A stretch of 64,000 nt of DNA from Deltaproteobacteria bacterium (GTDB lineage: Bacteria > Desulfobacterota > Syntrophobacteria > Syntrophobacterales > Syntrophobacteraceae), in NCBI GenBank assembly GCA_012517315.1, contig JAAYVE010000040.1, positions 1 to 64,000 of the forward strand, read 5' to 3'. Below, in pieces: positions 18,529-24,438 of this stretch. The notes under the pieces are model-generated. The model had not been told where the DNA came from and did not search any database. It saw only the letters and a list, made by a program, of their open reading frames with translations. The first letter of the stretch is position 1. Each line of letters starts with the position of its first letter. The translations under genes and the position numbers were made by a program.

Positions 18529-19674
18529 TTAACGTTTTTCGGGCTCGTCGGCACCGGGTGCATCCTCTCCGAATGATCCCTTCCCATCCCCTCCCTTTTC
18601 AGGAGCCACAACCAAGGCAGGCGTCTTTGCGTCCTGGGCATTGACCAGCAAGACAGTGACCTGCTGCGGAGCAGCTGAAGGCACGTCGGTTTCGATACCC
18701 AGAGAAATCTGCTGCCTTGCCCCCGGCCTGATGTTTTCCAGGACGGGCGAGATCTCCAGAGTGTAGCCCTGGTCCTTGGGTAGAGGCTGCTGGGTGACGC
18801 GGATGAGGTTTGAGTCATAGGAAAGCTTGGTGATTTGGAACGGCTTGCCGCGGTTGTTGATCACCCGGACCGTCTGCATGCGCAAAGGTTGCTGGGCGGC
18901 GAGTTTACCCACCAGCACCGTCGGTGGCTTGACGGCGATCTCACCCTCCAGGGAACCGATGACGCGGACAACAATCTCGGGTTTGCGGGGGTGATCAGTG
19001 AAGCATTTGATGAAGCCGGTGTAGCTCCCATGCTCCACCTGGTTGGCGATCTTGAGGCGATAGTGCTTTCCTTCTTCGATGGTCTGTAGTTGGTGCGAGA
19101 CATTGCCGCCCAGAGTGCTCTCTACCCGACGGATGTGGAAAGGCTCAGACGTGGTCACCATGTCCACTGTCTGCTCACCCATCTGGCCGGCCAAACCTCG
19201 GAAGGAAACCACGTTTCCGGGGCGCACCTCGACAAGCTGCTTCACGTTGGCCTGCAGGGTGAGCTTAACCAGGGGATTCCGAGGATCGTCCGTCAGAACC
19301 GTGGAAGTCTTCCGAACGGGTCCGCTGTAATTCTTCAGGTTCACCTTGATCGCAATCTTGCCCTCGCCTCCAGGAGGGATCGCCCGGTCAAACTCGGCGA
19401 CGGCGCAGCCTCAGCCCGGACGGACTTCGCGGATGTTCAGGACCGCCTTTCCCGTGTTTCTGACCGTGAATTCGTGGACGACTTCGGCGCCTTCCAGGAC
19501 TTCACCAAAATGGTGGTTCGGGTCCGGTACCTGGATGGAGGGTGTGTCCGGGTAGACCGCCCCCTGAGAGGGGGGTGCTTGGGGGTCAGGCGTCGAACAC
19601 TCCACGGTGCCGCTCAAGGCGACGAAGGAAACCGCTAATAAAAAGCACACGGTCTTGGCGAGAAACCGAGTCAT
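18529..19674 (-). CDS. DUF1573 protein with in-frame UGA: candidate selenoprotein
   Basis: Two minus-strand open frames in the same phase are separated by one UGA (19413-19411). Read through, they form one 381-residue protein. The start ATG at 19674 has GAAGG six bases upstream, followed by a signal peptide. The first part is a typical DUF1573 domain (HHFGEVLEG, HEFTVRNTGKAVLNI) and the UGA falls in VRPG-U-GC. Family members usually carry Cys at this place (CGC), so UGA replaces a conserved Cys. After it the domain continues (VAEFDRAIPPGGEGKIAIKV, then STVLTDDPRNP) with no loss of phase. A stem (19401-19396 with 19384-19379) with an 11-base loop starting in G begins 10 bases after the UGA, as expected for a bacterial SECIS. 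The protein is probably periplasmic; its function is unknown. The alternative is a nonsense mutation. Confidence 0.78.
19379..19401 (-). promoter_or_regulatory. Candidate bacterial SECIS hairpin
   Basis: On the minus strand GTCGCC (19401-19396) pairs with GGCGAT (19384-19379), five Watson-Crick pairs and one G-U. The loop is GAGTTTGACCG, with G in the first position. The loop begins 15 bases after the UGA, close to the 16-37 range described for bacterial SECIS elements. The stem is short, so this is suggestive only. Confidence 0.45.
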
Positions 19675-19826
19675 GAACATCCTTCTCTCTTACCCTATCT
19701 CTTGGAAACACAATGGAAACACCGTCCTGACGCATCTTTCGGTTTTGGTTGGCCTTGCATAACGTTTGATCATCAAAAGGTCAAGGTGAAACACCGATGT
19801 GAGATCGGCAGGTGCGCAGCCCTTCT

Positions 19827-21107: not shown

Positions 21108-22427
21108 CTACCTGAAATTCATCTGGGCCATGATCTTGTAACTCTTGAGCAGGTCGAGGGCTCTCCTGAGCTGATTGTCCTGCTCGATCATCTTCTGTGT
21201 CTCAGCGGCGAGATTCTCCTGTTTGGACGGGGGGGACTCGGGTTTACTGTTTTCCATGTGCCTGGGAAGATCCTTTTCCCGAATACGGCGTCCTTGGTCG
21301 GGGTTTTCGTCTTCCTCCTCCTTGGGTGGATTCTCCCGTTTCACCACGATGTCCGGTTCGATTCCCTTGGCCTGAATGGAGCGGCCCGAGGGAGTGTAAT
21401 AAAGAGAAGTGGTGAGTCGAATCGCCGATCCGTCGTTCAATGGAATCACTGTCTGGACGGAGCCCTTGCCGAAAGTGGGTTCCCCCAAGATCACGGCCCG
21501 CTTGTGATCCTGGAGGGCGCCGGCGACGATCTCCGACGCGCTGGCGCTTCCTGAATTGACCAGGACCACAATGGGGTAGCTGCGAGGTTTGCTGTTCTTG
21601 TGAGCCTCAAAGCGCATCTTCTGGCTTTCCAGCCGGCCACCGGTATATACAATGAGGCCGCTGTCCAGGAATTCGTCCGATACCTCGACCGCCTGGTCCA
21701 GCAGTCCGCCGGGGTCGTTGCGCAGGTCCAGCACCAGGCCGAGCAGGGGATGATTCTCACTTTCCAGCTGGTCCAGGGCCTTTTTCAGGTCGGCCGAAGT
21801 GCCGCTTTGAAAACTGGAAATCCTGATGTATCCGTATCCGGGGTCCAATGTCCTCATGCGAACACTCTGGATGGAGATGATGTCTCGGATGAGTTCGAAT
21901 TCCAGCGGCTTGCGTTCCCCCTTGCGGATGATGGTAAGTTTCACCCTGGTCCCCTTGGGTCCCCGCATCTTCTGCACCGCCTCCATGAGGGACATATCCT
22001 GTGTCGGCTGATCGTCGATCTTGATGATCTGGTCGTTGGAATGGATGCCCGCTTTGTCCGCCGGCGTTCCTTCCAGGGGAGAGACCACGGTGAGGACACC
22101 GTCACGGAGGGTGATCTCGATGCCGAGCCCTCCAAACTTGCCTTTCGTTTCTATTTGCAGTTCCTTGTAGTCTTCCGGCTTAAGAAAGGATGAATGGGGG
22201 TCCAGTTCCCGGAGCATTCCGTTGATGGCCCCATGAATCATTTTCTTGGCTTCGACCTTTTCAACGTAATTGTCCTCGACAATGTTCAGCACATCGCTGA
22301 AAAGTCTCAGTTGCTGATATATGTCCGGGTTTTCCTGACCGGTCTTGGCGCGCAGGGTGGACCAGCCCGCGAGCAATGCCACGAGTCCGAGCAGCAGGAT
22401 AAACAGCGTCTTCTTGTTTCTTCGCAT
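21108..22427 (-). CDS. S41 C-terminal processing protease
   Basis: Periplasmic serine protease of the CtpA/Prc type, 439 residues. The start at 22427 follows GAGG. A signal anchor (LFILLLGLVALLAGW) is followed by the N-terminal helical part and a PDZ domain (about 95-175, GGLGIEITLRDGVLTV). The S41 catalytic core then shows LRNDPGGLL, the nucleophile serine in NSGSASASEIVAG and the lysine in FGKGSVQT. The charged tail (about 365-425) is longer than usual. It probably trims exported proteins or regulates peptidoglycan hydrolases, and is likely cotranscribed with the deacetylase gene downstream. Confidence 0.9.
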   Translation of the reverse strand: MRRNKKTLFILLLGLVALLAGWSTLRAKTGQENPDIYQQLRLFSDVLNIVEDNYVEKVEAKKMIHGAINGMLRELDPHSSFLKPEDYKELQIETKGKFGGLGIEITLRDGVLTVVSPLEGTPADKAGIHSNDQIIKIDDQPTQDMSLMEAVQKMRGPKGTRVKLTIIRKGERKPLEFELIRDIISIQSVRMRTLDPGYGYIRISSFQSGTSADLKKALDQLESENHPLLGLVLDLRNDPGGLLDQAVEVSDEFLDSGLIVYTGGRLESQKMRFEAHKNSKPRSYPIVVLVNSGSASASEIVAGALQDHKRAVILGEPTFGKGSVQTVIPLNDGSAIRLTTSLYYTPSGRSIQAKGIEPDIVVKRENPPKEEEDENPDQGRRIREKDLPRHMENSKPESPPSKQENLAAETQKMIEQDNQLRRALDLLKSYKIMAQMNFR

Positions 22428-22783: not shown

Positions 22784-23686
22784 TCAGTCCCAGAATCTCA
22801 CGGGCTTCGAGTAAGACAGCCTGCACCCCAAGAGGCACAAGAACGTCGACCAGCAAAGGATCACTCCCATGAAAAGGCCAATACGGCCCCATTCCCGGAG
22901 AAATATCCATGGTTTCAGCTGAAAATGCGGAACTTCCACCTGCCACAGGAGGAACAAAACGGTCCCAAGGCACAGAATGGAAGCGAAAATGGCCAGGGCG
23001 AGGGCTTGCAGGTATGACGGAAGGCGGACCTGAAAGGGGGTCGCTCCCAGGAGTTCCGCCACTTCCCGTTCCTCACGGCGGATGGAGGCGTCCAAGCGGC
23101 AAAAAAGAGAGGAAACGATGAGGCAGATCAGGGAAAAAGCCCCCCCGGCAGTCACCGTCATCCATTTGGAGAAAGACTGGGCGTATTCCAGTCTCTCTCG
23201 GAGGGTGCTCCAACCGATCACTTCGGCCACGCCTGAAAGTCCTGCCAATTTCGAAGCAAGCGCCTCAAAATCTGCATCGGAATCTCCGTCGTTGGCAAAA
23301 AACACTTCCACGCGAGTCGGAGCCTCCCCTGTCCGGACTCCCGGGATCCACCAAGGCCAGGAAACCGGGTTGAGCATCTCGGTACGGCTTCCGCCCCGAT
23401 TCTCGCAGAACGCATGGACTCTCGCCACGCCAGGCCACTGCGTCAGTTGGGACACGAGCCTTTCCTGATCCCCGTAACCGGCTTTTTCATGGAGAACGAT
23501 CCATGCCTTGGGGCGGGAAATGGCCTGGGAATAGTGAAAGCGGAAACTCTCCAACAGAAGCCATGAGCACGCCAGAAAGAGAAGGCAAAGGGCGATGGAG
23601 AGGAGGGAAAAAAGGACGGCCGAGGAGTTCCTTCTCATGGCCTGGACAGCCAGTAGGGAAGCGTTTCGCACAAACGGCCACGTCAT
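22784..23686 (-). CDS. ftsX: FtsX-like cell-division ABC permease
   Basis: A 300-residue membrane protein with the FtsX layout: a first transmembrane helix (about 25-47), a periplasmic domain of about 120 residues, then three C-terminal helices (about 172-195, 228-250, 265-290). EREVAELLGATPFQVRLP is the coupling segment. It partners the adjacent FtsE ATPase to activate cell-wall hydrolases at the septum. Its ATG overlaps the ftsE stop (ATGA), so the two are translationally coupled. Sequence conservation in the family is low; the call rests on topology and the ftsE neighbour. Confidence 0.82.
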   Translation of the reverse strand: MTWPFVRNASLLAVQAMRRNSSAVLFSLLSIALCLLFLACSWLLLESFRFHYSQAISRPKAWIVLHEKAGYGDQERLVSQLTQWPGVARVHAFCENRGGSRTEMLNPVSWPWWIPGVRTGEAPTRVEVFFANDGDSDADFEALASKLAGLSGVAEVIGWSTLRERLEYAQSFSKWMTVTAGGAFSLICLIVSSLFCRLDASIRREEREVAELLGATPFQVRLPSYLQALALAIFASILCLGTVLFLLWQVEVPHFQLKPWIFLREWGRIGLFMGVILCWSTFLCLLGCRLSYSKPVRFWD

Positions 23687-24438
23687 GTGCCCATACCCGC
23701 TGCTTTGTTGGCGGTGCCTCGAAGCAGAGAAGGGCCCACTTCCAGGACGCGGCCACCGGTGAGCCGCAGGGTGCGTGGGGCATTGATGAGCTCAGCCACC
23801 TTGGGTTCGCGGGTGAAAACGACGATGGTGGTCCCTTTCAAATTGACGGATTTCAGGTGCTCCACAACCTTCAAAGTATGAGATTCATCCAAATGCGCCG
23901 AAGGTTCATCCCCCAGGAGAAGGAGGGGGGCATGAGCCGTTGCCCTCCCGACGGCCACGAGTTGCTGTTCACACCGGGAGAGTTCGCCGCACCTCAGGGA
24001 GGCTTTCTGCTCCAATCCGAGGGCAGTCAAAGACTGCATGGTCTTCCGGTGGATCAGGGCCCTGGAACTCTCAGCGAGCAGCAAGGGGAACGAGACATTT
24101 TCATAGACTGTCCTGGCCGGCATCAACTTGAGATCCTCAAAGACAACGCCCACCTGTTTGCGGAAAGAGGGCGCCTCGCGGGGAGCCAGTTTCGAAGGAT
24201 CTGCACCTCCCACGATGACCCGGCCTTCATCGGGGCTTTCCAGACCCAGAAGGAGCCTCAACAAGGTGGTCTTTCCACTCCCCATCTCGCCCACGACGCA
24301 AACCAACTCTCCCCTGAAAAGCTCTAATTGAAGGCCGCTCAGCAAATGTTTGCCGTTGTGGCCCAGCTTTTCCAGATGAAGACACTGCACATGGGGGATG
24401 GGATGGGACCGACGGGATGCTTCGCCTGGCAATTCCAT
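23683..24438 (-). CDS. ftsE: FtsE-like ABC transporter ATPase
   Basis: A 251-residue ATPase. Walker A is GEMGSGKTT (about 50-58), the Q-loop region is QVGVVFEDLKLMPARTVYENV, and Walker B is LLLLGDEPSAHLD. The ABC signature reads LSRCEQQ instead of the usual LSGGEQQ, so the two glycines that contact ATP are replaced by Arg and Cys. This is unusual and may weaken ATP hydrolysis. The neighbour ftsX supports the FtsE assignment. The first ~17 residues are not typical of FtsE, and a later start is possible. Confidence 0.83.
   Translation of the reverse strand: MELPGEASRRSHPIPHVQCLHLEKLGHNGKHLLSGLQLELFRGELVCVVGEMGSGKTTLLRLLLGLESPDEGRVIVGGADPSKLAPREAPSFRKQVGVVFEDLKLMPARTVYENVSFPLLLAESSRALIHRKTMQSLTALGLEQKASLRCGELSRCEQQLVAVGRATAHAPLLLLGDEPSAHLDESHTLKVVEHLKSVNLKGTTIVVFTREPKVAELINAPRTLRLTGGRVLEVGPSLLRGTANKAAGMGT

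Follow-up and report, generated by a model that had tools for sequence, protein, structure and literature searches.

Does the UGA codon that interrupts a DUF1573 gene on this Syntrophobacteraceae contig end a broken reading frame, or does it encode selenocysteine (Sec)? The gene lies in a window of 64,000 nucleotides, the whole stretch of DNA analyzed here, and occupies positions 18529..19680 of the minus strand, starting from an ATG at 19680 or 19674 and ending with the stop codon TAA at 18531-18529. The TGA at 19413-19411 (minus strand) is the sole break in the frame 19680-18529, which is open on both sides. Reading through it yields a single protein of 381 residues from ATG 19674 (383 residues from ATG 19680), in which the UGA corresponds to residue 88, counted from ATG 19674. 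As a previous sequence-only reading had claimed, the two minus-strand frames are in phase and together make up a complete DUF1573 domain: with Cys placed at the UGA, the Pfam profile PF07610 matches residues 50-144, across the UGA, with 76.4 bits against a gathering cut-off of 26.1. The UGA, in the motif VRPG-U-GC, takes the first Cys position of the DUF1573 CGC motif. When the 64 kb were scanned crudely for TGA codons flanked on both sides by coding-like composition, this site and eight others emerged; the eight overlap longer open reading frames and are taken as chance. No promoter or terminator scored above shuffles in the gene or its flanking sequence.

In-frame stops in draft contigs frequently result from errors, and both halves of the gene are also open reading frames by themselves, as would fit a stop codon in a decayed gene or two separate genes. 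Against such an error or pseudogene stands the conservation of the codon. A search of genome contigs revealed relatives of the gene in Syntrophobacteraceae and other Desulfobacterota, and two close ones (L212 and L220) come from the cultured Desulfoferrobacter suflitae; DUF1573 was found in 47 of the 60 genomes searched as relatives, with one TGA in most copies. Among the 98 DUF1573 domains collected from the source genome and its relatives, 82 have TGA at the same motif site, always this one, in many independent assemblies. The source genome itself has five DUF1573 domains, four with TGA and one with Cys (L143, the same gene as L009), and a phylum-wide search found TGA-bearing copies in many families. 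Moreover, the nonsynonymous rate is well below the synonymous rate on both sides of the UGA (dN of 0.40 upstream and 0.17 downstream, against a dS of about 2, which is near saturation and makes the ratio a rough one), so that the part behind the putative stop has a low dN/dS. Silent base-pair covariation behind the UGA, described below, likewise speaks against decay. Owing to this conservation, the error or pseudogene explanation is refuted for the family, and we give it practically no weight for this gene.

The copies that lack TGA mostly have Cys at the site, including L066, L141, L142 and L143, the short proteins L120, L126 and L127, and distant proteins with CGC or CCG, which bears out the proposal that the UGA stands at a conserved Cys. 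The Sec site of L139 is Ser. Two further copies deserve mention. L069 (G005:C93) has Thr (ACA) at the Sec site with the hairpin behind it still intact, as if Sec had been lost recently. L128 (G025:C91) has Trp (TGG) there and retains a Cys in the E-F loop; its codon is one base off TGA, or results from an assembly error.

The frame of the gene is also open under a code in which UGA is a sense codon, and a code change or general read-through would then place a standard amino acid at this position. However, a true TGA stop terminates 38 of the 82 TGA-bearing genes, and therefore UGA is not reassigned. The full Sec machinery and a hairpin whose register relative to the UGA is conserved, both presented below, count against this explanation as well, and we consider it very improbable.

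The hairpin lies at 19379..19401 on the minus strand, with the arms 19401-19396 (GUCGCC) and 19384-19379 (GGCGAU) and an apical loop at 19395-19385. Nucleotides 10-15 after the UGA pair with nucleotides 27-32, forming a stem that is one pair longer in most relatives. Analysis of genes in which codons +4 and +10 are both fourfold degenerate, so that both third bases are free for silent change, showed that these bases form Watson-Crick pairs in 53 of 67 genes (C-G 17, G-C 23, T-A 12 and A-T 1), compared to 21.8 expected and a maximum of 39 in 100,000 permutations, figures that ignore relatedness. In a check for kinship, 29 disjoint closest pairs of genes contained six double changes, four of which replace one Watson-Crick pair by a different one. 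In a second sample, taken from other families of the phylum, the two bases pair in 11 of 16 genes, against 5.95 expected (p 0.003). Across the alignment, 84.7% of the helix pairs are standard and the covariation score is 0.269, compared to 0.142 after shuffling and reached in 0 of 500 shuffles; both partners are changed in 48 cells, compared to 22 in shuffled data, and sliding the register lowers the pairing to 30-46%. The stem-loop that had been described as SECIS-like and placed 10 bases downstream of the UGA is thus found at that position, and its covariation supports its assignment. On these comparative grounds, the predicted hairpin is a real SECIS.

The helix was counted directly because RNAalifold on the full alignment returned only a second small hairpin (CCCU...AGGG) at 19361..19378 (minus strand); the miss may be due to gaps introduced by L051, an outlier with a longer loop. 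The second hairpin is weak and may reflect only the codons of the conserved PPGGEG. Folding of the window hairpin as a lone sequence gave an energy not above shuffles (z = +1.2) and was left out as evidence, and an Rfam search around the UGA gave no relevant match.

For Sec to be inserted, the organism needs the corresponding machinery, and the sequence-only reading had named the absence of sel genes as a refutation. All four, selA, selB, selC and selD, are present in the source genome. The selA gene on contig C45 scores 632.8 bits, and three selB genes (L014, L015 and L016) reside on C25, C28 and C43 with 377.9, 277.8 and 244.6 bits, respectively. A fourth strong selB match, on C53, was rejected as EF-Tu-like by sequence. 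Of the two strong selD copies, L232 (G000:C42:27607-28530) has an in-frame TGA, and its SelD is probably itself a selenoprotein. Two tRNA-Sec genes (selC) with the anticodon UCA were identified.

The second tRNA-Sec (G000:C43; L002 1498-1589; L016; L147), also with the anticodon UCA, has by eye a short D arm and a discriminator A. It adjoins the third, divergent selB (L016) and is convergent with a formate dehydrogenase operon, in whose large subunit the usual Sec site is apparently occupied by Cys (TGC). A selC beside selB also occurs in the genomes G001, G003, G026, G028, G030, G032, G034, G036 and G038.

Altogether, what marks a bacterial selenoprotein gene is found here: an in-frame UGA flanked by conserved coding sequence, with homologs that have Cys in its place, a SECIS in the coding region close behind it, and all four sel genes in the genome. 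We thus assign the gene, with a probability of roughly 0.93 and on the strength of sequence comparison, to a predicted exported OS_HP2/DUF1573 selenoprotein in which UGA would be read as Sec by SelB and Sec-tRNA, acting via the hairpin 10 nt after it. The view of a Sec-containing secreted or periplasmic DUF1573 protein accordingly gains support from the UGA conservation, the SECIS, the machinery and the predicted export.

The earlier reading left open whether DUF1573 proteins were already known as selenoproteins; they are, which agrees with our assignment and lowers its novelty. OS_HP2 was described as a pfam07610 selenoprotein with the motif UxC (PMC2398784), and DUF1573 (pfam07610) with the motif UGC is also listed as a selenoprotein (PMC9312934, PMC13188914); PMC9312934 cites a 2007 Olavius study for it. 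The window protein scores 121.8 bits with the NCBIfam model OS_HP2_seleno (NF041425), above the curated cut-off of 100, and has Sec in the UxC/UGC motif (VRPG-U-GC). It shares the domain, the motif and the above-cut-off score with OS_HP2, from which it shows no difference; the family is already described and is not new. The DUF1573 (PF07610) proteins with a CGC motif, such as L143, have the same domain and the same site, but Cys replaces Sec.

The AlphaFold model of the window protein (mean pLDDT 90) consists of a helix (residues 4-22), three Ig-like domains (about residues 55-147, 150-245 and 254-347) and a disordered tail. The N-terminal helix is a predicted signal for export, and the Sec, as part of Sec-Gly-Cys, is placed in the first domain, within its C-C' loop. 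Foldseek search with this protein revealed Ig-like repeats of ciliary central-apparatus proteins, and the same search with a short form of the family returned HYDIN, 2qsv and VesB/VesC. A search for PDB relatives of the family at the sequence level found none. The likeness to HYDIN/PapD-like Ig-like domains, including VesB/VesC of Vibrio cholerae and 2qsv of Porphyromonas gingivalis, is one of fold only, and unlike the window family, these proteins are not described as selenoproteins.

Further comparison of the relatives revealed two forms that differ in the position of a potential partner Cys. The long proteins, mostly of 320-440 residues, have U-G-C and an aromatic residue at the E-F loop position (Tyr in 25 and Phe in 20 of 51). 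In most of the short proteins, of about 140-240 residues, U-G-[S/T/L/V/I] replaces U-G-C and Cys occupies the E-F loop position (NPKxC). All of 77 Sec proteins have Cys in at least one of the two places: at Sec+2 alone in 47, in the E-F loop alone in 26 and in both in four. With the E-value set to match a cut-off of about 100 bits, 41 of 51 long proteins but none of 35 short ones passed the OS_HP2 threshold. The short protein L124, for example, reaches only 74.9 bits against the cut-off of 100. Thus the short paralogs differ from OS_HP2 in falling below its curated cut-off and in mostly lacking the published UxC motif. In the model of L124, Sec (residue 122) is located in the C-C' loop and Cys150 in the E-F loop. 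The C-C' and E-F loops of an Ig-like sandwich lie at the same end. Judged from strand order only, the Sec and the E-F loop Cys of the short form would be near each other, at one pole of the fold. We found no literature report of the short UG[S/T/L/V/I] paralogs, 26 proteins whose partner Cys lies in the E-F loop.

Relatives from other families show further arrangements. In family f15, L245 and L246 are short exported DUF1573 Sec proteins with a lone Sec and no Cys at all, and therefore a Sec-Cys pair is not universal; in L247 and L248 of the same family, the only Cys beyond the leader is C-terminal. In L249 (G318:C3), a DUF1573 relative from another family, Cys stands next to Sec (KPC-U-GV).

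What could such a protein do? The likeliest role, which we hold at about even odds, is that of a secreted thiol/selenol redox protein. We propose that Sec would form a reversible selenenylsulfide with a nearby Cys; in the short paralogs, the E-F loop Cys would serve as the partner instead of that at Sec+2. The window protein would then carry out thiol/selenol redox reactions in the periplasm, acting on envelope proteins or oxidants, and might receive electrons from a CcdA/thioredoxin-type relay. Some neighbors point in this direction. A DsbD_TM/CcdA gene is the nearest same-strand upstream gene of the long paralogs L058 and L064 (both Sec) and L143 (Cys, in the source genome); L064 is also near a short thioredoxin-like open reading frame, and the short L100, L117 and L121 are near a protein with thioredoxin/glutaredoxin-like domains. 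These neighbors, at few loci, suggest a redox role, and DUF1573 paralogs directly behind CcdA/DsbD-type genes were not found reported in the literature. Against this role, the protein lacks a catalytic fold and a known substrate, and the window gene lies beside ctpA and a deacetylase gene, not beside ccdA.

Alternatively, Sec is made, but Sec-Gly-Cys binds a soft metal or selenium/sulfur species without redox cycling. A short Sec-X-Cys on a β-sandwich loop could plausibly bind soft metals, and the two short relatives lacking Cys have no partner for a selenenylsulfide. Nevertheless, the presence of a Cys partner at either of two places in 77 of 77 relatives and the CcdA- and thioredoxin-like genes beside some paralogs fit redox chemistry better, and we regard a pure binding role as unlikely.

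The surroundings of the window gene itself bring in another alternative. Upstream, all on the minus strand, lie genes for a divergent polysaccharide deacetylase (PF04748; 19827..21086), which comes directly next, an S41/PDZ carboxy-terminal protease of CtpA type (21108..22427), an FtsX-like permease (PF02687; 22784..23686; E-value of 4e-5, just below the cut-off) and an ABC ATPase that is FtsE-like by position (23683..24438). Two of these same-strand upstream neighbors are conserved: the deacetylase recurs in 31 genomes, and CtpA, the S41 protease, in 26; this place of a DUF1573 gene behind the deacetylase and ctpA was not found reported in the literature. The Ig-like domains might thus form an envelope scaffold that binds partners of peptidoglycan hydrolysis (FtsEX, CtpA and the deacetylase), with Sec as a redox switch. 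The conserved deacetylase, directly upstream, and CtpA would fit this role, but a gap of about 147 bp separates the window gene from the deacetylase gene and the paralogs are located elsewhere, which makes a scaffold slightly less probable still than the binding role.

Returning to the redox protein, we tentatively propose, at a little below even odds, that the short paralogs are an apparently undescribed selenoprotein subfamily of secreted or lipid-anchored Ig-fold proteins. Their resolving Cys would have shifted from Sec+2 to the E-F loop, where it would form a selenenylsulfide with Sec of the C-C' loop. Short and long forms alike would be Ig domains with redox activity that depend on a relay of CcdA/thioredoxin type, with up to four Sec copies in a single genome within this family. 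Standard gene calling splits the window gene at its UGA, and the same is expected in dozens of Desulfobacterota genomes. The window gene itself is a confirmation for specialists; what is new is the shifted position of the partner Cys. For OS_HP2, the gain consists of codon-level support for the SECIS, a genomic setting, a redox hypothesis open to testing and a second branch not captured by the curated model.
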